Below, in pieces: positions 5,927-63,216 of a stretch of 64,000 bases of DNA (positions are counted from its first letter, which is position 1; each line of letters begins with the position of its first letter). The translations under genes were made by a program, and so were the position numbers. Source of the stretch: Phycisphaerae bacterium (GTDB lineage: Bacteria; Planctomycetota; Phycisphaerae; Sedimentisphaerales; Anaerobacaceae). A model generated the notes under the pieces. The model worked only from the letters and a program-made list of their open reading frames with translations. It ran no database searches and was not told the DNA's origin. The DNA is taken from the NCBI GenBank assembly GCA_017993835.1, contig JAGOLX010000018.1, positions 1-64,000 on the forward strand, written 5' to 3'.

Positions 5927-8650
5927 ATGCCTATGGATGCCCAGAGCCCCATGCCTGATCTCTCGGTCGTGGTGCCCACGCTCAACGAAGGCCCAAACGT
6001 GGATCTGCTCCTGGCCGGGTTGTTCCGGGCCTTCCGCGAGGAAGGTCGGGAAATCGAAGTCCTGTTCGCCGACGGCGGCTCGACGGACGGGACCCGGGAG
6101 AAGGTGCAGGCCTGGACGGACCGGGCGCCGGTCCGACTGGTCGACGCGAGGAGCGGATGCGGGCTGGCGGGCGACGTCCTGATCGCCGCTCGCGAGGGCC
6201 GGGCGGAGGTCGTCCTGGTGATGGACGGGGACCTCAGTCACGACCCCCAGGCGGCGCCGGACGTGGCCCGACCGGTGATCGAGGGCCAGCGGGACATGGT
6301 GATCGGCAGCCGGTATGTGCCCGGCGGTACGACCCCCGGCTGGTCCTGGCCCCGTCGGGCGATGTCACGCATGGCCAGGGCCCTCGTCTGGCCGCTCACC
6401 GACGTGCGCGACCCGACCTCCGGGTTCTTCGCCATCCGACGGGATCGGCTCCTGGCCGTCGGCGATGACGCGGAGGGCTTCAAGATCGCCCTGGAGACGC
6501 TCCTGCGCAACGACGAAAGCCTTCGCGTCGGCGAGGTTCCCATCTGTTTTGCAAGCCGGTCCTCCGGGCAATCCAAGATGAGCCCGCGCCAAGCCGTGTG
6601 CTATCTGCGCCGCGTCATCGCCTTGACCGGCGCGACCGCTGCCGCCGTCACCGCCCGACGGTTCGTCCCGCTCGCCCTTGCGGGTCTGGTCCTCGACGTG
6701 GGCGTTCTCCAGGTCCTTCATCGCCTCGCGGGCAGCCTGGCGGTCTCCCACATCGTCAGTTGCCTGTTGGCGATGGTCGTGGTCTATCAGTTGACCAGTC
6801 GCTGGGCGTTCCGACCCGCGACAGGCGGGCGTCGGGACGCGGGAGCGGCTCTGCGTTTCGTCCCAGTGTGTCTGGTGACTCTGTTTCTTCGTGGGGGCCT
6901 CCTGGCGATGCTGACGGAACGGGCCGGGTGGCTCCCCTGGCAAGCGGTCGCAGGCGCGGGCGCAGTATCCGCGGTCCTCGCCTACGTCGGCATGGCGTTC
7001 TTCGTCTTCCGCCGGGACGACGGGACGCCCGCGTTCCTCTCCCGGCGTCTCGCGGCCGTCGGATGGATCGGCGCCGCCCTGCTGCTGCGACTGGCCTATC
7101 TCGGACTGCCCGATCTGCTGCCGGAGGAGGCCTACTACTGGAACTACGCCCAGCACCCGGCGCTGAGCTACCTGGATCATCCGCCCATGGTCGCCTGGTT
7201 GATCGGCCTGGGCACTGCGGCGTTCGGCGACACCGAGTTCGGCGTGCGGATCGGCACGTTCCTGTGCTGGTTCGTCACCGCAGGGTTCTGCTTCGCAACC
7301 GCACGCGACCTCTTCGGCAAGGGGGTCGCCCTGCAGACGGTCGCGCTGGCTGCGGTGCTGCCCTTCTTCTTCGTGTTCGGTTTCTTCGCGACGCCGGACG
7401 CGCCTCTGACCGCGGCCTGGGCCGGGACGCTGTTCTTCCTCCAACGCGCCCTGCTGGCCGACCAGGAGCGGGCCTGGTGGGGCGCCGGCATCTGCCTCGG
7501 CCTGGGAATGCTCTCGAAATACACGATCATCCTGCTGGGACCGGCGGTGTTGCTGTTCCTCGCACTGGATCGTCCAAGCCGGCGATGGCTGCGGCGTCCT
7601 GAGCCGTACCTGGCGGCGCTCGTCGCGACGATCCTGCTGACCCCGGTGATCGTGTGGAACCTGCGGAACGACTGGGTCTCGTTCTTCTTCCAGACGACGG
7701 GCCGGCTCAACCGCCCGAGCGAGTTCGGACTGCCCCTGCTCGTCGCCTCCGTGCTCCTTCTGGTCACGCCGCTCGGGGCGCTCGACGCATTCCGGGCCTT
7801 GTTCTCGTCGCGCGCCGAGCGCCGGGCGTCGGGCGTCAGCCCAGCCACGACGCGCCAACGGCTCTTCATGGCGGTCTTCACTCTCGTGCCGCTGTCGGTC
7901 TTCGCCGTCTTCAGCCTTCGGCACGCGGTGCGACTCAACTGGACCGGCCCAATCTGGCTGGCCGCACTGCCCGGCATCGCGGCATGGATCTCAAGGCCGT
8001 CCTCCGCGGCCGGCCGCAGGAGCGAGACGATCACGCAACAGGTCTGGGCCTTCACGCCTGCGGTCCTCGTGCTGTCGTTCGGCGCGTTCTTCCACTACCT
8101 CGCGATCGGGCTTCCCGGCCTGGGGATCGACCGCGACATGGGGCTGCCGATGGCGTGGGAGGAGATCGGGCGGGACGTGGAGTCGCTGGCCCAGCAGATG
8201 GAGCGAGATCACGGGGTCGCGCCGCTCGTCGTCGGGATCGACCGGTACGGCCTGGCCAGCGAGCTGGCGTTCTACCGTCGGGCGGGCAAGAAGGGCGTCG
8301 AACAGACCTGCGGTCGGCACCTCTTCGGCGGCAATGCCCTGATGTACTTCTTCTGGTTCAAGCCCGAGGAGCAGGCGGGCCGGCTGATGCTGCTGGTCTC
8401 CCTGGACCGGGGGGACCTCGACCGTCCCAACATCGTCCGCTGGGTCCGGCTCGACCCCATCCAGGAACGAATCGTACACAAGCACGGCCTGGAGGCGCGG
8501 TACTTCTGCCGGGTCGCATACGACTACCGCCCGCCGCCGCCGCAGGATCGACCCGATTCCTTCCCCCTGCGGAGGGTGATGTCCCAAGAAACGGCTCTCC
8601 CGGTCGACGGAGCTTGCCGCCGGCTCCCCTGCTATGCTGCAAGTCGGTGA
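5927..8650 (+). CDS. Three-module membrane glycosyltransferase: GT2 (DPM1-like)-GtrA-GT39
   Basis: A 907-residue fusion. Residues about 8-230 are a dolichol-phosphate-mannose-synthase-like GT2 domain: VVVPTLNEGPN, DGGSTDGTRE, the metal-binding DGD of VMDGDLSHDP, and DPTSGFFAIRRD. Residues about 240-370 are a GtrA-like four-helix membrane module. The remaining part is a PMT_2/GT39 (ArnT-like) multi-membrane transferase with the typical acidic loop EEAYYWNYAQHP and HPPM. The combination suggests one polypeptide that makes a polyprenyl-phosphate sugar, helps move it across the inner membrane and transfers it to an outside acceptor. Start ATG at 5927 is chosen before MPDLSVVVPT; 5933 and 5951 are alternatives and no ribosome site is decisive. 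The acceptor is unknown. Confidence 0.82.
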   Translation: MPMDAQSPMPDLSVVVPTLNEGPNVDLLLAGLFRAFREEGREIEVLFADGGSTDGTREKVQAWTDRAPVRLVDARSGCGLAGDVLIAAREGRAEVVLVMDGDLSHDPQAAPDVARPVIEGQRDMVIGSRYVPGGTTPGWSWPRRAMSRMARALVWPLTDVRDPTSGFFAIRRDRLLAVGDDAEGFKIALETLLRNDESLRVGEVPICFASRSSGQSKMSPRQAVCYLRRVIALTGATAAAVTARRFVPLALAGLVLDVGVLQVLHRLAGSLAVSHIVSCLLAMVVVYQLTSRWAFRPATGGRRDAGAALRFVPVCLVTLFLRGGLLAMLTERAGWLPWQAVAGAGAVSAVLAYVGMAFFVFRRDDGTPAFLSRRLAAVGWIGAALLLRLAYLGLPDLLPEEAYYWNYAQHPALSYLDHPPMVAWLIGLGTAAFGDTEFGVRIGTFLCWFVTAGFCFATARDLFGKGVALQTVALAAVLPFFFVFGFFATPDAPLTAAWAGTLFFLQRALLADQERAWWGAGICLGLGMLSKYTIILLGPAVLLFLALDRPSRRWLRRPEPYLAALVATILLTPVIVWNLRNDWVSFFFQTTGRLNRPSEFGLPLLVASVLLLVTPLGALDAFRALFSSRAERRASGVSPATTRQRLFMAVFTLVPLSVFAVFSLRHAVRLNWTGPIWLAALPGIAAWISRPSSAAGRRSETITQQVWAFTPAVLVLSFGAFFHYLAIGLPGLGIDRDMGLPMAWEEIGRDVESLAQQMERDHGVAPLVVGIDRYGLASELAFYRRAGKKGVEQTCGRHLFGGNALMYFFWFKPEEQAGRLMLLVSLDRGDLDRPNIVRWVRLDPIQERIVHKHGLEARYFCRVAYDYRPPPPQDRPDSFPLRRVMSQETALPVDGACRRLPCYAASR

Positions 8651-8993
8651 ACCGGGCGGAAAAATCTCGCCTTGGCCCGCCTGCAAGGGCCCTGCCGAAA
8701 CGACCCGCCCCCTCCCTCGCCGGGAGGAGAACCCAGCCAGAGCACAGAGAGCTGTGGTGTTATAGGACTGCCGATCTTCATCAAAACGCCGCACGGGCCG
8801 CCGCCCGATACAGAGGACGCGCGCGCCAGACCGGGCTTGACCCTCCAGTCATCCCGGCGTATAATAAGGGCAAATCGGGTGCTGGGTGTACGGACACTTC
8901 CCTCGTGGCAGAACATCTTTCCGACAGTGCAGTCCACTGCATGGATAAGTCTGGATCAGCGAACTGGGGTCGAAGAACAGACATAGTCCGATC
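8651..8993. other. Intergenic region upstream of the lipoprotein pair
   Basis: 343 bases without a supported gene. The only structured signal is the near-consensus promoter at 8837-8865. No hairpin followed by a T-run was seen after the glycosyltransferase stop. Confidence 0.5.
8837..8865 (+). promoter_or_regulatory. Sigma70-type promoter
   Basis: TTGACC at 8837 and TATAAT at 8860 with a 17-base spacer, a near-consensus vegetative promoter. Transcription would begin near 8872, giving a leader of about 120 bases before the first DUF4056-like lipoprotein gene. Confidence 0.65.
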
Positions 8994-10151
8994 ATGAAGG
9001 CAAGCAACACATTGTGGCAAGGGCATCTCCTAGGTCTGGCGTCGCTGGTATTCGCGGCTGCCGGGTGTGGCATGTTGCCCGAGCGTACCTCGTCAGAATC
9101 GGCTGGCCGGCTGGTCACCCGAGGGCTTGACGTGCCTCCCCGGACGCGGTTCGGCTGCTATGCGGCCGCGATCCCCGGAATGACATTTCTCGGCCGCAAT
9201 CTGGGGTCTCACAGCTATCATTGGCCGTTCCTGGAGAAGAACGGAATCGTCTACACCTGTCGCGGCGGGCATATCGACCTCGTCCACCTCCGCAACGCCG
9301 CGGACTGGACCGCCTACCTCGCGGCCGACAGTTACAGGCACCTCATGAAGAAGGACCCGCGGTTCTCCTGCAAGATGCCGGTGGACCGCTCGCGGACCCA
9401 CGTGGAAATCGCCTACCCGCGTGGTTGGGATTTCCTGTCCGCTCAGGATCGTTCCGCGATTGCTGAGAAGATGGCGATGGCTCTCGGCCCGTACCTGGCC
9501 TTCACGATGACGACCTGGCACGAGGTCACAACCTGGTACGGCTACAAGTGTACGCTCCTGCCCGTCGAGTACGATTCCGCGTTCAGTTGGGAGGACTCCT
9601 ACTCGAACCTGCTGGGCACGAGGATCGCCCTGCGGGCCCTTCAGGACACGAAGCACTCGTACGATCAGGCGATGACCATCGCGCTGGACGAGGAGATGGC
9701 CGCTCTCGGCATCGTGCCGACGGCCCGCGAGGCCTACCGGGCCAGCCGGTCCATGAAGGGTCAGTGGTACACCGGGACGTGCGTCCTGCTGTTCGACATG
9801 AAGAAACGCAATTTCGACGTCGGACTGGACGACGGGTATGTCACTCCGACTCTCGTGCCGAACGCGTCGTCGTGTCCCCAGGCGCAACCGCAATCCTATC
9901 CGGTCCCGACCCTCGATGCCCTGAGCAACTACGGGTTCACGGTAACGGTTGAAATCGAGCCTCGCGAGTGGGAAAAAGACAAGATCCTGCGGGCCGCGTT
10001 TGGCGACGAACGCCAGAAACGAATCGACCCGACAGTCCATCTGGCCATCATCATGGACCACATCCAGCGGGAGGCGGCCGCGAAGTACGGCCCCCAATAT
10101 GAGCCCGACGTCCCGTGGCCCGAGGCAAGATACGTACGGACAGACAGGTAA
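8994..10151 (+). CDS. DUF4056-like lipoprotein (first of tandem pair)
   Basis: A 385-residue predicted lipoprotein. The signal peptide ends in a lipobox-like FAAAGC, so the mature protein would be lipid-anchored at Cys25. The body contains GGHIDLVHLRNAADWTAYLA and TWHEVTTWYG, with a conserved His-Glu pair; together with SAFSWEDSYSNLLGT these recall the DUF4056 family, whose biochemical role I do not know. The HExxTW stretch could be a metal-binding or catalytic centre (inference). The next gene is a paralogue of the same length class with the same motifs, pointing to a tandem duplication. The near-consensus promoter at 8837 probably drives both. Alternative: an unrelated periplasmic hydrolase family with the same conserved core. 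Confidence 0.7.
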   Translation: MKASNTLWQGHLLGLASLVFAAAGCGMLPERTSSESAGRLVTRGLDVPPRTRFGCYAAAIPGMTFLGRNLGSHSYHWPFLEKNGIVYTCRGGHIDLVHLRNAADWTAYLAADSYRHLMKKDPRFSCKMPVDRSRTHVEIAYPRGWDFLSAQDRSAIAEKMAMALGPYLAFTMTTWHEVTTWYGYKCTLLPVEYDSAFSWEDSYSNLLGTRIALRALQDTKHSYDQAMTIALDEEMAALGIVPTAREAYRASRSMKGQWYTGTCVLLFDMKKRNFDVGLDDGYVTPTLVPNASSCPQAQPQSYPVPTLDALSNYGFTVTVEIEPREWEKDKILRAAFGDERQKRIDPTVHLAIIMDHIQREAAAKYGPQYEPDVPWPEARYVRTDR

Positions 10152-14057: not shown

Positions 14058-14116
14058 GAGCCACGCAGCGTCCCATCGACGGGGTTACGCTGCACGCCGC
14101 CAACGGACTATCCGCT

Positions 14117-14271
14117 GAAACTCGAAGCGCGAAACTCGAAATCCGAGACAAATTCAAATTGGGGAAATCCAAGTGCTCGAAACGCTGTCGCCGGTCGGGC
14201 GAGCGGTTTTGGATTTGGCATTTCGGTCATTCGTGCTTGTTTCGGATTTCGAGTTTCGAATCTCGGATTTC
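14117..14271. repeat. MITE-like palindromic repeat, copy A
   Basis: About 155 bases with inverted ends built on CTCGAAATCCGA-ACAA and TTGTTTCGGATTTCGAG, and an interior containing AAACGCTGTCGCCGGTCGGG and TCGGTCATTCGTGC. The same element occurs in opposite orientation at 14751-14900 and in degraded form near 46581-46706. It sits immediately upstream of the archease gene. No protein is encoded. Confidence 0.75.
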
Positions 14272-14318
14272 TTCTGCTACCATGAGGCGCGTCTCGCAGA
14301 CATGGAGCATCGCGTGTT

Positions 14319-14741
14319 ATGGCCACAGGGCACTGGGAGCATTTCTCGCATCCGGCGGACATCGGCATTCGCGGCGTGGGACCGACCCGTGAGGACGCCT
14401 TCGCCCAGGCGGCGACCGCACTGACCGCGGTCCTGGTCGATCCCGCGAAGGTCGAGCCCCGAGAGGCGGTCGAGATCGTCTGCACCGAGCAGGACGACGA
14501 GATGCTCTTCATGAGTTGGCTGGCGTCGCTGCTCTACGAGATGGACACGCGAAGGATGCTGTTCAGCCGATTCGAGATCGAGCCGATCGAGGGCGGCATC
14601 CGGGCGAAGGCCTGGGGCGAGCCGATCGACGTCGCCAGGCACGAGCCCGCGGTCGAAGTGAAGGCGGCCACCTACGCCGGCCTGAAGGTCCAAAGGGACG
14701 CCGCCGGCAACTGGCTCGCCCAGTGCATCGTGGATGTGTAG
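14319..14741 (+). CDS. Archease, RtcB activator
   Basis: A 140-residue archease. In known systems this small protein binds the tRNA-splicing ligase RtcB and speeds its guanylylation, allowing multiple turnovers. The family signature is clear: HPADIGIRGVGPTREDAFAQAA at the N-terminus with the metal-binding Asp, DDEMLFMSWLASLLYEMD in the middle, and HEPAVEVKAATYAGLKV then CIVDV at the end. Length matches the family (about 140). The rtcB gene follows 180 bases downstream on the same strand, the usual pairing, but here the gap is filled by an inverted palindromic repeat, and another copy lies just upstream of this gene. No clear Shine-Dalgarno precedes the ATG. Confidence 0.9.
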   Translation: MATGHWEHFSHPADIGIRGVGPTREDAFAQAATALTAVLVDPAKVEPREAVEIVCTEQDDEMLFMSWLASLLYEMDTRRMLFSRFEIEPIEGGIRAKAWGEPIDVARHEPAVEVKAATYAGLKVQRDAAGNWLAQCIVDV

Positions 14742-14750
14742 GAAGAGAAG

Positions 14751-14900
14751 CACGAAGTCCGAAGTTCGAAATCCGAAACAAGCACGAATGACCGAAATCG
14801 CAAATTTGAAACAGATCGCCCGACCGGCGACAGCGTTTCGAGCCTTTGGGTTTTTCCAATTTGAATTTGTTTCGGATTTCGAGTTTCGGATTTCGGATTT
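14751..14900. repeat. MITE-like palindromic repeat, copy B (inverted relative to copy A)
   Basis: The reverse complement of this segment reads almost identically to 14117-14271, including AAACGCTGTCGCCGGTCGGG and CGGTCATTCGTGCTTGTTTC. It occupies nearly all of the gap between archease and rtcB. Because the two copies are inverted, their transcript could fold back and loop out the archease message (inference). Confidence 0.75.
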
Positions 14901-14920
14901 GTTTGCAGGGAGCAGAAGAG

Positions 14921-16351
14921 ATGTTCGCCAAGAGATTGCAGAAGCAGGGAGAAGCCTGCTGGGTCATTGAGCCGTTCGACAGGATGCGGGCGCCGGTGGT
15001 CGTCTTCGCCGACGAAGAACTGGTCCGCGAGATGGAAGAGCAGGTCTACCAGCAGGCGGCCAACGTGGCGGCTCTGCCGGGGATCGTGACGGCCTCGTAC
15101 GCGATGGCCGACGCCCACTGGGGTTACGGCTTCCCCATCGGAGGCGTCGCCGCCTTCGATCCGAACGAAGGCGGGATCATCTCCGCCGGCGGCGTCGGCT
15201 TCGACATCTCCTGCGGCGTCCGCGCCCTCCGCACCGGCCTTACCTATGACCAGATCCAGGGCAAGGAGAAGGAGCTGGCCGACGTCCTGGCCCGGCGTAT
15301 CCCCGCGGGCGTCGGCAGCGAGGGCCGGATCAAGCTCTCCGCGTCGCAGATGGACGACATGCTCCTGGGCGGCGCCCTCTGGGCGGTCGAAGAGGGTTAC
15401 GGCGCCCGGAACGACCTCAAGTACATCGAGGAGGGAGGCCGGGTGTCCGGCGCCGAGCCGCGATACGTCTCCGACCACGCCAAGCAGCGACAGGAGAAAG
15501 AGGTCGGCACGCTCGGCTCGGGCAACCACTACCTCGAAGTCCAGCGCGTGACCGCAGTCTACGACGAGGACATCGCCAAGGTCTACGGCCTGGCCCTCAA
15601 CGACATCATGGTGATGATCCACTGCGGCTCGCGCGGCCTCGGCCACCAGATCGCCACGGACTTCGCGCCGCGGATGATCAAGGCGGCCGCCGAGCACGGC
15701 CTGGAGCTGGCCGACCGCGAGCTGGCCTGCGCCCCGATCCAATCCGACGTGGGACGCCAGTATTACGGCGCGATGTGCGCCGGGATCAACTGCGCCCTGG
15801 CCAACCGCGAGGTCCTCACGCACCTGACGCGGGAGGCCTTCGCCAGGCTCTTCCCGCAGGCGGATCTGACGCTGCTCTACGACGTCTCGCACAACACGTG
15901 CAAGGTCGAGGAGCACAAGATCGACGGCAAGCCCAGGAAGCTCTACGTCCATCGCAAGGGCGCGACACGGGCCTTCGGGCCGGGACATCCCTCGCTGCCG
16001 GAGGACCTGCGCCCGGTCGGCCAGCCCGTCCTCATCGGCGGCACGATGGGCACCGCCTCCTACATCCTGGCGGGCACGAACGAGGGCATGGGCCTGTCCT
16101 TCGGCTCCTGCTGTCACGGCGCCGGTCGGGCCGTGAGCCGCAGCCAGGCCACCAAACGCTGGCACGGCAAGGACATCGTCATGCACCTGGCCCAGAAAGG
16201 CATCGTCATCCGCGGCTCGTCCATGCGCGGAATCGCCGAGGAGGCGCCGGGCGCCTACAAGGACGTGTCCGTCGTCGTCGACGCCACAGAGAAAGCGGGC
16301 CTGGCCCGCAAGGTCGCCCGCCTGGAGCCGCTGGCCTGCGTGAAAGGCTGA
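14921..16351 (+). CDS. rtcB: RNA-splicing ligase RtcB
   Basis: A 476-residue RtcB ligase, which joins RNA 2',3'-cyclic-phosphate or 3'-phosphate ends to 5'-OH ends using GTP and Mn(II), acting in RNA repair or tRNA splicing. Visible family motifs are ADAHWGYGFPIGGVAAFD, GGVGFDISCGVRAL (metal-binding Cys), LGSGNHYLEVQ, IHCGSRGLGHQIA, DVSHNTCKVEEHK and CHGAGRAVSR with the His that carries the GMP intermediate. Length is normal. The start at 14921 follows GCAGAAGAG and gives the family-like N-terminus; the longer open frame upstream is the repeat element. Paired with archease upstream. No rtcA or rtcR-type regulator is visible in the window. Confidence 0.95.
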   Translation: MFAKRLQKQGEACWVIEPFDRMRAPVVVFADEELVREMEEQVYQQAANVAALPGIVTASYAMADAHWGYGFPIGGVAAFDPNEGGIISAGGVGFDISCGVRALRTGLTYDQIQGKEKELADVLARRIPAGVGSEGRIKLSASQMDDMLLGGALWAVEEGYGARNDLKYIEEGGRVSGAEPRYVSDHAKQRQEKEVGTLGSGNHYLEVQRVTAVYDEDIAKVYGLALNDIMVMIHCGSRGLGHQIATDFAPRMIKAAAEHGLELADRELACAPIQSDVGRQYYGAMCAGINCALANREVLTHLTREAFARLFPQADLTLLYDVSHNTCKVEEHKIDGKPRKLYVHRKGATRAFGPGHPSLPEDLRPVGQPVLIGGTMGTASYILAGTNEGMGLSFGSCCHGAGRAVSRSQATKRWHGKDIVMHLAQKGIVIRGSSMRGIAEEAPGAYKDVSVVVDATEKAGLARKVARLEPLACVKG

Positions 16352-51509: not shown

Positions 51510-54500
51510 GTGGCTTCTCAGAAAGCTGCAATCCACGAAATCGACTTTTGCGGGCAGATTGCTGCCGCGACTTACGTCTTGATAAGCCAGAACCCAGAGG
51601 CCTATGCTCCCCTGCATGAAGCACGTCTGGAGGGCTTTGGCACAGGCACGGGACGTAGCAAACGCAAGGACTTGCGTTTCTTCGACCGCTACGGCAAAGT
51701 GGTCTTGTGCGGTGAAGTGAAGTTGCCCGGGACTCGGGAAGGCAGTTCACCTTACACAGAGAAACTCATGCAGGATGCCTTCGCCAAGGCGGAGAATGCG
51801 AACATCCAGTTCTTTTTCACCTGGAACGTCAACGAATTTGTGCTATTCGACCGCAGTCTGTGGGACCGCCCGCTGATCGAGCGCCGAGTCCGACCGTGGC
51901 GACTGGGGCGAACTCTGGCCGATCCTGAAGATGTCGCGAGAGAAGAGAATCTCAAGTTCATCAAGACGCGATTTCTACCGGATCTTCTCCACGATTTGGC
52001 AGACCTGATCTCCGGTCGTCGTGTCGAATGGCTACCACCAGACGACGTTTTCATCCATTCCCTTCAGGGCCACCTCAACTGGCCGGTGCAACTGATGGGT
52101 TCGTACCTTCTCGAGCACACGAACAAGAGCAAGCCATTTGATCTCCGCATTCAGCAATGGCTGGAAGGCCAGGATCGCACGTTCGTCCGCACTCCGCAGG
52201 AGGAGTGGATCAAGGCCATAGACAACATGGCCAAGACGCTCGTGTACGTCTGGGCAAACCGTTTCATCTTCTACAAAGCCCTGCGTGCCAGATTCAGCGA
52301 GCTGCCTCGCCTTGAACTGCGGCGTTCGATCAAAACACCCGAAGAGGCCGTGACTGCCTTCAACCGTTTTTTCCGGCGAGCCGTAGATCGCAGTGGCGAT
52401 TACGAGCCGTTATTGATGCCTGATGCGAAAGACTGGGCAACCCGCCTTGTCTTCGATCCACCCACGGCCTTGGATACGTGGCGCGGGGTGTTGCGCAATA
52501 TCGAATCGGTGGATTTCCGCGAAGTCGCCTCCGATGTCGTCGGGCGTATCTTTCAGAAACTCATTGGTCCAGACGAACGCCACCGCTACGGCCAACATTT
52601 CACGGGCGACGATGTCGTGGACCTGATCAACGGTTTCTGTGTCCGAAGCGGCGATGATGCCGTCCTTGATCCGGCCTGTGGGTCGGGCAGCTTCCTTGTC
52701 CGTGCCTACTACCGCAAGCGTCACCTGGACCCGTTGCGCCCGCATCTGGACCTGATCAGCGAATTGTTCGGTTGCGATATTGCCCTCTATCCGGCCCATC
52801 TGGCGACGCTGAATCTTGCGGCCCGTGAAATCAACGATGAGGCCAACTATCCGCGCATCGCGCGATGCAACTTCTTCGATGTCACGCCCGAGAAAGCGTT
52901 CTGCGAGATTCCTGTCCCGAGCGAATCCTCAGATCGGACGGCGGTACTGCTGCCGGAGTTGGATGCCGTCGTTGGCAATCCTCCGTACGTTCGTCAGGAG
53001 AAGGTCGAGAAGAAGGACAAGGTTCGTTTTGCCGGAATGGCCAGCGAGGCATGGCCTGATTTGCGTTTGAGCGGCCGAAGCGATCTGCACTGCTATTTCT
53101 GGCCGGGCGCAACACGTCTGCTGAAACCCGACGGCTACTTCGGTTTTCTCACCAGCTCTTCATGGCTGGACGTCGAGTACGGCTTTACCCTCCAGGGGTG
53201 GGTGCTCCGCCACTTCAAGGTTCTGACGATCATGGAAAGTGCGGCCGAACCCTGGTTCGAAGACGCGCGTGTCAAGACCTGCGTCACCATCCTCCAACGT
53301 TGTGACGATGAGATGGAGCGGATGGAGAACTCCGTTCGTTTCGTGCGTTTCTCGCGCAGGCTGGCCGACATCATCGCAATTCCACCGGGCCAGAATGAGG
53401 ACGCTCGCCAGGCTTCTATTGAGGCAATGCGATACCGGATTCTCGGCACGCAGACCGATCACCAGGACCAGGACATGCGGATCGTCGTCAAAATCCAGCG
53501 AGATCTCTGGAATGACGGCGTTCGCGCCGGCCTGATCCTGGGCAACGTAGAACTGGAGCCGCTCGCGGACGAATATGAGAATGGATGCGGACCCGAGTTA
53601 GAAGAGGGTACGGCGCTTGCCCCCGAGTCGATGAATAGTCCGAAAGAGAACGGTGATTACCATGCGGGCAAATGGGGACGGTACGTCCGCGCTCCAGACA
53701 TCTACTTTGAAATCATGCGTCGCTTTGGTAGTCGATTCGTTCACCTTGGAGAGGTAGCCACAATCCGCCGGGGGATAACAAGTGGATGTGACGCGTTCTT
53801 CATGCCCAAGGATGTCACGGCTGATGTCCTGGCAAAACACGAGACTGACCGCCTGTTCCCTCGGTACGCAGGGGGTGCACCCCGGAAAGAGGTCGAGGCA
53901 GGCAAGCTCAAGATCATTGAAGCGGGCGACGGAAGCATCCACCCCGTCGAAGCAAGATACCTGGCGCCCGAAGTCCACAGTCTGATGAAGCTGGATCGGC
54001 CCATAGTTCACGCCGGTGATCTAGATCGTGTCGTTCTGCTCGTTCGCGACCCGATGGACAGGTTGAAGACCAAGTCACCTTGGGTCTGGCGGTATCTGCG
54101 TTACGGTATGACCGCAACCTTTGTGTCCGAGAAGTCGAAGGGCAAACCCATTCCGAAACGCTCGACTTGCGCGGCGAGAGATCCGTGGTATGATCTGACA
54201 AGACTCGCAAAACCAGGTTTTGCATTTTGGCCCAAGGCGCAGCAATACCGCCACATCATCCCGGCCAATCCCTCGGCGACTATCTGCAACTGCAATCTCT
54301 ACGATGTATCCTCGGATGATCTCGCAAGAGATGAGCGAACGTCCTTGGTGGCTATTCTGAACTCAACACTGGTTGGTCTGTTCAAGACTTTCTATGGACG
54401 TTTCGCGGGCACGGAAGGCAACCTCAAGACCGAGGTGGTAGACGTGAATCTCTTGGAGGTACCCGACCCTCGCGGCATTTCGGCGAATCTGGCCCAACGT

Positions 54501-55310
54501 CTGAGCGATACCCTGGATCACATGAGCAAACGTGAGGTAGGTCGGCTGGTGGAAGAACAGTTGATGGACTGTCACACGCCCGAGCGTGCGCGGAGAATTG
54601 CCGCCGGGCAGCTCGTGCTATCCAACGAGTTGCACCAGCGAGACCGACAAGACCTGGATGATGCGGTCTTTGAACTGCTGGGTGTGACTGATCCGCAGGA
54701 GCGGGCCCACCTTGTTGGTCGGCTGTATGAGGCCACGGCACGACACTTCCGGGATATTCGCGTCGTCGAAATCGAGAAGATGCAGCAGCGGGCGAAATCG
54801 AACAATCAGCGTTTCAGTGTCCATGATCTGGCCGCCGACATCTGGGACGCTGGCGAGCTTGAAGATGCCACCCCACTGGCCGAATGGGTCGGGCAGTGGC
54901 CTGAATCCGCCATGCTCGTGGATATTCCGGAAGAGCGACCGGCGATCCTGTCACCCTCACCCATGTTCGATCCGAACACGGTTTACTTCGGAAAGACACG
55001 ACGAACACACGTTGACTGCCCATCCCGTGGACAGGCCGAATTGGTCGTGCGCCTGGCCAACTTCGGGGTGAGCGGGAAAGTGAAACTGCCCGGCGATCTG
55101 GACCCATGCCTGAAACTGCTGGACCGCATGGAAGTCCGGATCGACAAGGCGATGGCCCGATTCGCAGAGTTGGCCGAGAGTCGCACCGGGGATGAACGTG
55201 TCCGACAGCAGGTCCTGGAAGCTCTTGAGCGATGGTTTGTGCTTGGCCGCGAGGGGGGCAACGCCGACACTCCGCCGGAGGACCGAGACTCCGCGCCCGA
55301 CGACATCTGA
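51510..55310 (+). CDS. Single-chain restriction-modification enzyme (type IIG/IIL-like N6-adenine methyltransferase)
   Basis: A 1266-residue protein with nuclease, methyltransferase and recognition parts. Residues about 55-75 hold a PD-(D/E)xK-like site (DLRFFDRYGKVVLCGEVKLP). Residues about 385-400 carry methyltransferase motif I, LDPACGSGSFLVRAY, and residues about 488-491 the catalytic motif IV NPPY, the gamma order of N6-adenine methyltransferases. The C-terminal 550 residues, with RFVHLGEVATIRRGITSG and a later TRD-like part, would read the DNA. No separate endonuclease, specificity subunit or BREX/DISARM partner lies beside it, so it should act as a self-contained unit. GTG start with AAGGA upstream. 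Codon choice appears more mixed, less GC-biased, than its neighbours, suggesting transfer. Confidence 0.82.
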   Translation: MASQKAAIHEIDFCGQIAAATYVLISQNPEAYAPLHEARLEGFGTGTGRSKRKDLRFFDRYGKVVLCGEVKLPGTREGSSPYTEKLMQDAFAKAENANIQFFFTWNVNEFVLFDRSLWDRPLIERRVRPWRLGRTLADPEDVAREENLKFIKTRFLPDLLHDLADLISGRRVEWLPPDDVFIHSLQGHLNWPVQLMGSYLLEHTNKSKPFDLRIQQWLEGQDRTFVRTPQEEWIKAIDNMAKTLVYVWANRFIFYKALRARFSELPRLELRRSIKTPEEAVTAFNRFFRRAVDRSGDYEPLLMPDAKDWATRLVFDPPTALDTWRGVLRNIESVDFREVASDVVGRIFQKLIGPDERHRYGQHFTGDDVVDLINGFCVRSGDDAVLDPACGSGSFLVRAYYRKRHLDPLRPHLDLISELFGCDIALYPAHLATLNLAAREINDEANYPRIARCNFFDVTPEKAFCEIPVPSESSDRTAVLLPELDAVVGNPPYVRQEKVEKKDKVRFAGMASEAWPDLRLSGRSDLHCYFWPGATRLLKPDGYFGFLTSSSWLDVEYGFTLQGWVLRHFKVLTIMESAAEPWFEDARVKTCVTILQRCDDEMERMENSVRFVRFSRRLADIIAIPPGQNEDARQASIEAMRYRILGTQTDHQDQDMRIVVKIQRDLWNDGVRAGLILGNVELEPLADEYENGCGPELEEGTALAPESMNSPKENGDYHAGKWGRYVRAPDIYFEIMRRFGSRFVHLGEVATIRRGITSGCDAFFMPKDVTADVLAKHETDRLFPRYAGGAPRKEVEAGKLKIIEAGDGSIHPVEARYLAPEVHSLMKLDRPIVHAGDLDRVVLLVRDPMDRLKTKSPWVWRYLRYGMTATFVSEKSKGKPIPKRSTCAARDPWYDLTRLAKPGFAFWPKAQQYRHIIPANPSATICNCNLYDVSSDDLARDERTSLVAILNSTLVGLFKTFYGRFAGTEGNLKTEVVDVNLLEVPDPRGISANLAQRLSDTLDHMSKREVGRLVEEQLMDCHTPERARRIAAGQLVLSNELHQRDRQDLDDAVFELLGVTDPQERAHLVGRLYEATARHFRDIRVVEIEKMQQRAKSNNQRFSVHDLAADIWDAGELEDATPLAEWVGQWPESAMLVDIPEERPAILSPSPMFDPNTVYFGKTRRTHVDCPSRGQAELVVRLANFGVSGKVKLPGDLDPCLKLLDRMEVRIDKAMARFAELAESRTGDERVRQQVLEALERWFVLGREGGNADTPPEDRDSAPDDI

Positions 55311-61087: not shown

Positions 61088-61698
61088 GACGACTCCTGCA
61101 CTGCCCAAGGGATGGTCACTTCGAGACAACTGCTGATATCATAACGTGCTCCGGCAGGACTGCAATACTTGGGATTTCAAAGCGGGATTCCCTGCTCTTC
61201 TGTTGCTTCCCTCAATCTATTTGGTTCATCACGGAATTGCGGGGACGCCTGTCGGAAGGAAGAAACGGACGTCCCCGGAATCCGCCGCATTGCGTCGGGC
61301 ATTTCCCCCTTTGGGCCAGCAGCATGGAGGTGGAAGAATCGGTCGCTCGACCGGAGCTTGTCTCGCCGTCTCTTCCTCCATTTTCATGCTGCTGGCTCAA
61401 TGCGCCAAATGCCGGGGGCTTGGGGGCAGCGCCCCCAAATGAAGGCACGTGGAGAACAAACGAGTGCATTACGTGTCTCTCAGAGCCGTGCCGATTTCCC
61501 CGCAATTCCGTGAAGAACCATTCATTTCGGGATAATGGGTGAAGAGACGACAGAGTGGATGGTGGCTCTCGCAGGAACGGAAGTCACCGAGAACATTCGG
61601 ACCCGTCGCGGCGTAGGATTGTTGAAGCGCGTGCCTGCGACGCTTCGATTCCAGTCTTGAGCGGGATCGTTGTGGTGAGCAAAGAGAGGACAACTGTC
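61088..61698. other. Divergent region holding a MITE
   Basis: 610 bases without a supported gene; about half is the palindromic element at 61223-61519. AGAGAGGA sits before the BchE-like start at 61699. No promoter could be placed with confidence. Confidence 0.55.
61223..61519. mobile_element. MITE-type palindromic element with 23-24 bp terminal inverted repeats
   Basis: A 297-base non-coding element. The left end GGTTCATCACGGAATTGCGG (continuing GGA) and the right end, whose complement is GGTTCTTCACGGAATTGCGG (continuing GGA), match at 22 of 23 positions. Inside, GGCCAGCAGCATGG and CATGCTGCTGGC are also inverted, as are GTGGAAGA and TCTTCCTCC, around a CGGTCGctCGACCG centre, so nearly the whole element is a palindrome. 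The flanking octamers are ATCTATTT and ATTCATTT, six of eight alike, possibly an aged 8-bp target duplication. It has no transposase; a trans-acting IS would be needed to move it. Confidence 0.8.
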
Positions 61699-63216
61699 AT
61701 GCGCATTCTGCTGGTCAATCCGCCTCATCCCTCCATCGGCAGCCGCATCCCCCACGAGCACTTGCCGCCCCTGGGTCTGCTGTCCATCGGGGGGCCGCTG
61801 ATCGACGCGGGACATGAGCTGCGACTGCTGGATGCGGAATTCGGGCCCATGTCCACACAGGAAATCGTGGAACAGGCCGTGACATTCGCGCCGCAGGTCG
61901 TCCTGCTGGGACACTCCGGCTCGACCTCGGGGCATCCCATCGCCGCGCAGGTGGCCCGCGCCATCCACGAGGCGATCCCCGCGGCCTGGATCGTTTACGG
62001 CGGCGTCTTCCCCACCTTTCACTGGCACCGGATTCTGGCCGACGAGCCGCAATTCGACATCATCGTCCGCGGCGAAGGCGAGGAGACGATTCTCCGCGTG
62101 ATCGACGCGATCGAGACCGATGTCCCGCTGGACGAGGTGCCCGGGATTGCCTACCGCAGGGCAGGCGTGCCGCGAGCGACCGCACCGGCGAGGATCCTCG
62201 ACGATCTCGACGCCTTTCGCGTGGGCTGGGAACTCATCGACCCGCGCCGCTATACCTATTGGGGAGACCGTCGGGCCGTCGTCGTGCAGTTCTCTCGGGG
62301 TTGTCCGCACCAGTGCAACTATTGCGGCCAGCACCCCTTCTGGCGACGTTGGAGACACCGCGACCCGCAGAAACTCGCGGCCGAACTCGCCTGGCTGCAC
62401 CGGACCCACGGGATCGAGGTCATCGATTTTGCGGACGAGAATCCGACCGCGTCCCAACCGGCCTGGCGGGCCTTCCTGGAGGCGCTCATCGCCGAGAACG
62501 TCCCGCTGACGCTGGTCGGCTCCACTCGGGCGGATGACATCGTCCGCGACGCGGACATCCTGCACCTCTACAAGAAGGCCGGTTTCGCCCGCCTGCTGTT
62601 GGGCATCGAGAACTACGACGAACAGACGCTCCGCAAGATCCGCAAGGGCGGCGCCACCGCCAAAGACCGCGAGGCCATCCGCCTGTTGCGCCGGCATGAC
62701 ATTCTCTCGATGGCGACCTACGTCGTCGGGTTCGACGACGAGACAGATCGCGACTACTGGCGCGGTCTGCGACAGTTGCTCTCCTACGACCCGGACCAGA
62801 TCCAAATGCTGTATGCCACGCCGCACCACTGGACGCCCTATTTCCACGTGGCCTCCGACCGGCGGGTCGTGCAGCCGGACCTTTCCAAGTGGGACTACAA
62901 GCACCAGGTGCTCGCCAGCCGGCATATGTCGCCTTGGCGAGTCTTGCTGTGGGTGAAGTTCATCGAGGCGGTCATGCAGTTCCGGCCCAAGTCTCTGCGA
63001 CGGCTCTTCGCACACCCCGATCTACCCCTCCGCGACGCAATGAAATGGTACTATCGCATCGGCCGGCGAGTGTGGCCGTACGAGATCCGCAACTTCCTCT
63101 TCCACGACCACTGCCGCCAGGACGGCCCCACCCTGGCCAAATTCTGGGGCTCGCCCGAGAAGGCAGGCGAGTTGAACCCCGTCGAACAGATCGTGTCGCA
63201 ATGCCTCCAGGAGTAA
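61699..63216 (+). CDS. BchE-like B12-binding radical SAM protein
   Basis: A 505-residue protein with an N-terminal cobalamin-binding Rossmann domain (MRILLVNPPHPSIGSRIP, LLGHSGSTSGHP, YGGVFPTFHWH) and a radical SAM domain. Its CxxxCxxC cluster is CPHQCNYC near residues 202-209. The N-terminus reads strongly like BchE, the anaerobic Mg-protoporphyrin IX monomethyl ester cyclase of bacteriochlorophyll synthesis. No other pigment gene is present and the genome type is not phototrophic. A related oxidative or methylating reaction on another substrate is more likely. Downstream of a MITE. AGAGAGGA precedes the start at 61699. The C-terminal 150 residues (WDYKHQVLASRHMSPWRVLLW) form the family's third domain. 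Confidence 0.85.
   Translation: MRILLVNPPHPSIGSRIPHEHLPPLGLLSIGGPLIDAGHELRLLDAEFGPMSTQEIVEQAVTFAPQVVLLGHSGSTSGHPIAAQVARAIHEAIPAAWIVYGGVFPTFHWHRILADEPQFDIIVRGEGEETILRVIDAIETDVPLDEVPGIAYRRAGVPRATAPARILDDLDAFRVGWELIDPRRYTYWGDRRAVVVQFSRGCPHQCNYCGQHPFWRRWRHRDPQKLAAELAWLHRTHGIEVIDFADENPTASQPAWRAFLEALIAENVPLTLVGSTRADDIVRDADILHLYKKAGFARLLLGIENYDEQTLRKIRKGGATAKDREAIRLLRRHDILSMATYVVGFDDETDRDYWRGLRQLLSYDPDQIQMLYATPHHWTPYFHVASDRRVVQPDLSKWDYKHQVLASRHMSPWRVLLWVKFIEAVMQFRPKSLRRLFAHPDLPLRDAMKWYYRIGRRVWPYEIRNFLFHDHCRQDGPTLAKFWGSPEKAGELNPVEQIVSQCLQE

Follow-up and report, generated by a model that had tools for sequence, protein, structure and literature searches.

A radical SAM protein with a B12-binding domain from a planctomycete belongs to a family sister to the phototroph cyclase BchE

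The radical SAM enzymes with an N-terminal B12-binding domain (class B) include BchE, the anaerobic Mg-protoporphyrin IX monomethyl ester oxidative cyclase (TIGR02026; e.g. from Rubrivivax, Roseinatronobacter and Thiodictyon), whose gene is found in photosynthesis gene clusters such as bchBNF-ppsR-bchEJG in Roseinatronobacter and bchLM-puhABC-bchE in Thiodictyon. Purified BchE requires SAM and a reductant, contains four-coordinate cobalamin and is inhibited by methylated cobalamin, and its reaction proceeds via hydroxy- and keto-intermediates; methylases make up most of the cobalamin radical SAM enzymes (PMC13142503). Another non-methylase is OxsB (PDB 5ul2-5ul4), the cobalamin radical SAM enzyme that carries out the ring contraction leading to oxetanocin, and a methylase relevant to the comparison below is HpnR (TIGR04367), which acts on C-3 of hopanoids. 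Here we describe a gene of this kind in a window of 64,000 nucleotides (the whole stretch of DNA that was analysed) from contig JAGOLX010000018.1 of a Phycisphaerae bacterium (GCA_017993835.1). The host, surmised from the letters alone to be planctomycete-like, is indeed a member of Planctomycetota, with a genome of 6.37 Mb that is 99% complete.

According to the ORF reading of the window, the gene is intact from the ATG at 61699 to the stop codon at 63214-63216 (Table 1). An alternative in-frame GTG at 61555 would lengthen the ORF, but the N-termini of the relatives begin in the alignment at the methionine of MRILL..., which matches the ATG and not the GTG. Both Pfam domains (B12-binding and Radical_SAM) are full-length and score above their cut-offs, and the cluster motif in the radical SAM core reads C202-PHQ-C206-NY-C209, so that both hallmarks of class B are present and the first-pass annotation was right in calling them complete. 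The BchE model TIGR02026 aligns over 1-497 of 497 and exceeds its curated cut-off of 481.35 bits. The second-best NCBIfam family, HpnR, matches residues 1-408 with 143 bits against a cut-off of 650, hence the protein is not an HpnR member.

Table 1. Features of the gene and of its product, in coordinates of the window
Feature	Position	Strand	Evidence and details
CDS, BchE-sister cobalamin-binding radical SAM protein	61699..63216	+	505 aa + stop; TIGR02026 542.5 bits
B12-binding domain, residues 22-132	61762..62094	+	PF02310 62.3 bits; loops GHSGSTSGHP, GGVFPT, GEGE
Radical SAM core, residues 197-355	62287..62763	+	PF04055 72.5 bits
[4Fe-4S] cysteine motif C202-x3-C206-x2-C209	62302..62325	+	sequence; invariant in both clades
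Clade signature IGSRIPHEHLPPLGLL, residues 13-28	61735..61782	+	alignment, 83+ clade members + 18 true BchE
Clade-specific TPHxWT ... WDYKHQVL, residues 374-405	62818..62913	+	true BchE here: TPWPF ... YNFVTPI
3' gene part surviving alone in two congeneric genomes	63006..63156	+	G393:C173:2109-2270, G398:C263:9704-9838

The protein belongs to a separate family that is sister to BchE; NCBIfam lumps both as "BchE". It resembles BchE in the order of domains, in length and in the CxxxCxxC motif, but is only 26-31% identical to the BchE proteins of photosynthesis gene clusters, whereas its identity to the members of its own clade (80 loci from named genomes) amounts to 57-78%. This clade spans at least nine phyla (Planctomycetota, Chloroflexota, Hydrogenedentota, Myxococcota, Pseudomonadota, Verrucomicrobiota, Acidobacteriota, Bacteroidota and Cyanobacteriota). 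A relative from Sedimentisphaerales reaches 78%, and the same range covers Thermoflexales, Anaerolineales, Hydrogenedentota, Pyxidicoccus, Methylorubrum, many Mesorhizobium, Caulobacter and Stenotrophomonas humi, as well as members of Verrucomicrobiota, Holophagaceae, Bacteroidota and Cyanobacteriota; in Sphingobium and Allocoleopsis the family is found on plasmids. In both a wide tree (117 rows) and a tree of a careful set (41 rows) the two groups form clades on long stems, with bootstrap/SH-aLRT support of 100/99 for true BchE and 100/100 for the clade of the protein, and forcing the protein into true BchE is rejected in the 41-row tree (delta lnL 149, AU p=0.0004).

In the alignment, 50 positions have the same invariant residue (at least 97%) in either clade, among them the cysteines, QxxFW, ADExP, RxxxIxRD and GEGE, and 80 further residues are fixed only in the clade of the protein. 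The phototroph motifs GGAEIAGNWPP and TPWPF are not present; instead, the clade conserves IGSRIPxEHLPPLGLL and TPHxWT...WDYKHQVL. The C-terminal sequence also differs from that of BchE. The first-pass annotation had read the N-terminus as that of a phototroph BchE, which does not hold in detail, since IGSRIPHEHLPPLGLL occupies the position of GGAEIAGNWPP. That annotation had also set a placement outside the BchE clade against its own reading: the protein does fall outside phototroph BchE, but its clade is sister to that of BchE, and a single NCBIfam model covers both. Full-length true BchE proteins score about 754-831 bits with TIGR02026 and members of the protein's clade about 509-730 bits; as this equivalog model accepts the non-phototroph clade too, a score above the cut-off is not diagnostic for phototroph BchE. 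The notes to TIGR02026 presumably mention a non-phototroph clade, and our search of the available literature for such a clade found no description.

The two types also coexist. Leptolyngbya PCC 7375 has one gene of each, and a single contig of a Myxococcales metagenome-assembled genome (L148) carries both, at 8001-9536 and 14095-15873. On this contig a true bchE next to a bchJ lies about 5 kb from the copy of the protein's clade, together with an MFS transporter that looks like a member of the BCD family, and the region represents a photosynthesis gene cluster in Myxococcota. As a separate observation, the copies from metagenome-assembled contigs titled Akkermansia muciniphila (L123) and Bordetella parapertussis (L129) group with cyanobacterial ones, and these titles are probably misassigned bins.

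In the host genome, BchH/CobN gave no match while the controls were positive, and BchL gave none above the cut-off; the search for pigment genes covered these two. BchH is likewise absent from the three relatives' genomes that were searched (L085, L080 and Pyxidicoccus L083). Since there is no BchH, Mg-protoporphyrin is not expected in the host. The 11 other homologues in this genome are distant class B radical SAM proteins with at most 32% identity, so the description of the gene as a lone copy, with no other pigment gene among those searched, stands. The first-pass annotation had further proposed to check for cobalamin synthesis: CobQ has no match above the cut-off and CobS, like CobN, was not found, and both de novo synthesis and final assembly of cobalamin look absent, as judged from these gene searches, which points to cobalamin import.

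The genomic neighbourhood offers no conserved partner. We compared all ORFs of 82 relatives' loci, of the window and of two deeper planctomycete loci, and no neighbour family is widely common across phyla in the 82 loci; the apparent conserved clusters that we checked were explained either by ORFs antisense to the gene itself or by synteny within one genus. Because this orphan gene travels alone across unrelated bacteria, a substrate from core metabolism appears more likely. A search for riboswitches near the gene found none, either in the window or at eight loci of relatives, and one scan of IMG/VR with the family alignment gave no confirmed viral relative. In the window the gene is flanked by restriction-modification genes, with a large Eco57I-type methylase on one side (51510-55310) and, from 63498 onward on the other side (L064:8697-10333), a small HTH regulator, an unassigned ORF and an N6/N4 DNA methylase.

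We propose, with about an even chance of being right, that the protein is a working class B radical SAM enzyme of a separate BchE-sister family, which carries out BchE-like oxidative chemistry on a substrate without Mg and uses imported cobalamin. The [4Fe-4S] cluster on C202, C206 and C209 would cleave SAM to yield the 5'-deoxyadenosyl radical, which would abstract a hydrogen atom from the substrate, and base-off cobalamin, taken up by the cell and held in the N-terminal domain, would stabilise or redox-tune the substrate radical; as for BchE and OxsB, the outcome would be an oxidation or the formation of a ring and not a methyl transfer. The substrate in this host would not be Mg-protoporphyrin monomethyl ester, but more likely a core-metabolism compound present in many unrelated bacteria, the leading guesses being a hydrophobic lipid or a tetrapyrrole that is metal-free or carries iron. 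Non-methylating oxidation is the most likely guess because of the sister position and the invariant residues shared with BchE, to which may be added that the non-methylase OxsB is the best match in the PDB profile search; the shared BchE-type residues, however, may mark common descent only. Of the two options raised by the first-pass annotation, another B12-dependent radical reaction thus gains support from the separate, well-supported clade outside true BchE and from the absent Mg-chelatase H, whereas a pigment relic does not (see below).

An alternative that deserves serious weight, even if we hold it to be somewhat improbable, is that of a cobalamin-dependent radical SAM C-methylase, in which methylcobalamin would give its methyl group to the radical on the substrate. 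Methylases prevail among class B enzymes (PMC13142503), and the second-best family model is that of the methylase HpnR. The AlphaFold2 model of the protein (mean pLDDT 88) matches AprD4, MgmA, CysS, TsrM, OxsB and TokK with Z of 22-29 over most of residues 1-437 and throughout the B12 and SAM part, and the matches to MgmA, CysS, TsrM and TokK equal that to OxsB in strength; OxsB itself has the same fold, but differs from the protein in an extra N-terminal region, a nucleotide substrate and a distant sequence. A model of true BchE (pLDDT 74, from a shallow alignment) retrieves the same top matches, with a top Z of 30.0, and since the two lists are nearly identical, the fold comparison does not separate the protein from true BchE. 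The predicted fold alone neither decides between methylation and oxidation nor proves cobalamin binding. Methylation is disfavoured by the scores of the family models (542 bits for BchE against 143 for the best methylase model), by the tree, in which the protein is closer to BchE, and by the presence of BchE-type motifs.

The top fold match of the protein is AprD4 (Z 29.2), whose B12-like domain, to our knowledge, binds no cobalamin. It is conceivable, but quite improbable, that here, too, the fold of the domain was kept while the use of cobalamin was abandoned, as reported for AprD4; cobalamin binding by the protein is predicted from its domains, AprD4 shows that the fold alone is insufficient, and CobQ and CobS, which act in cobalamin assembly, are absent from the genome. 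On the other hand, the Pfam B12-binding domain scores 62 bits, the clade conserves its GG(V)FPT and GEGE loops, which true BchE largely shares, and in the profile search part of the B12 domain aligns with OxsB, CysS and TokK, but no such alignment was obtained with AprD4. Moreover, the model of true BchE has the same top match, yet BchE binds cobalamin (PMC13142503).

It is very improbable that the protein is a genuine Mg-protoporphyrin monomethyl ester cyclase, whose substrate would be imported or provided by other enzymes. The score does exceed the NCBIfam cut-off for BchE, and the Myxococcales contig places one family member near a bchE-bchJ cluster, but the tree position outside true BchE, the replaced N-terminal and TPWPF motifs and the absence of BchH from the host and the three relatives argue against this reading, as does the fact that the hosts are mostly non-phototrophs and that two phototrophs among the carriers also have a true bchE.

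Comparison with the closest relatives gives dN of about 0.13-0.20 and dS of about 0.9-1.8, the latter near saturation, so that the dN/dS of about 0.1-0.2 (0.09-0.15 for the nearest relatives from planctomycetes, Chloroflexota and Hydrogenedentota) is approximate; the nucleotide differences are concentrated at third codon positions. The low ratio together with the third-position bias indicates a gene under purifying selection and not a relic. The GC content across the gene (0.64-0.65; GC3 0.82) is in line with most of the surroundings and does not suggest that the gene was acquired very recently from a source of different GC; the flanking restriction-modification genes are lower in GC than the gene. 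Intact copies above the cut-off are found in 2 of the 392 genomes of the Planctomycetota sample. Eight other genomes of the genus contain no intact copy, and two congeneric genomes (G393 and G398) keep only the last 40-60 codons. The remnant in G393 (L062, G393:C173:2109-2270) adjoins sequence whose counterpart in the host is located on the contig of the gene, at a distance of about 15 kb. The gene was once present in relatives and has been at least partly lost there. In L062 the gene breaks off directly next to a short GC-rich GGGCGGGCTCCGCCCACC-like repeat, further copies of which lie at several places in the window; the second 3'-end remnant is L063 (G398:C263:9704-9838). An upstream BNR-repeat gene is common to six congeners with differing flanks, which may reflect insertion or loss of the gene. 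The least probable reading is that the gene is left over from an ancestral pigment pathway and is decaying. The rarity of intact copies and the apparent loss from the genus could be cited for it, but the host has a full-length copy with dN/dS near 0.1-0.2, relatives in many phyla, mostly from non-phototrophs, retain 57-78% identity, and pigment genes adjoin the gene only on the one Myxococcales contig.

The direct sisters of true BchE also come from planctomycetes, namely from three families (L069:6258-7727 in G161, L070:3910-5409 in G123 and L071:6973-8460 in G145). Like the protein studied here, they are B12-binding radical SAM proteins of hosts in which BchH was not found, but they score just below the TIGR02026 cut-off and cluster with true BchE (38-41% identity) rather than with the protein (30%); the identity of 38-41% to true BchE was measured for the G161 protein, and the group takes the direct-sister position in both trees. 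Multihaem c-type cytochromes (4-22 CxxCH per ORF) are encoded near the gene in all three loci, and a homologous NHL-repeat protein is encoded directly downstream in G161 and G123, the neighbour in G145 being more weakly similar. Such a cytochrome was seen in none of the 82 loci of the protein's clade, nor, within 1.5 kb, in any of 42 further planctomycete loci for B12 radical SAM proteins. With three loci, in genomes that are perhaps rich in cytochromes, this linkage is a lead and not a result. It is tempting to speculate, although we regard it as rather unlikely, that the protein is a tetrapyrrole-modifying enzyme of non-phototrophs, acting on haem, a metal-free or another porphyrin, and that BchE was recruited from such a pool, since the planctomycete sisters of BchE that lack BchH adjoin multihaem cytochromes. 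If true, the family would be an unrecognised B12-dependent tetrapyrrole branch from which chlorophyll synthesis drew its E-ring step.

The automatic annotation "Mg-protoporphyrin cyclase" in at least nine phyla wrongly implies chlorophyll synthesis in non-phototrophs. The family, with at least 80 conserved members of patchy distribution, probably performs similar vitamin B12 and radical chemistry on a compound other than the substrate of BchE. The availability of active purified BchE (PMC13142503) makes a parallel assay of both enzymes possible, and, because sister lineages lacking BchH occur on either side of the split, the question of how the chlorophyll E-ring step arose can be put to the test.
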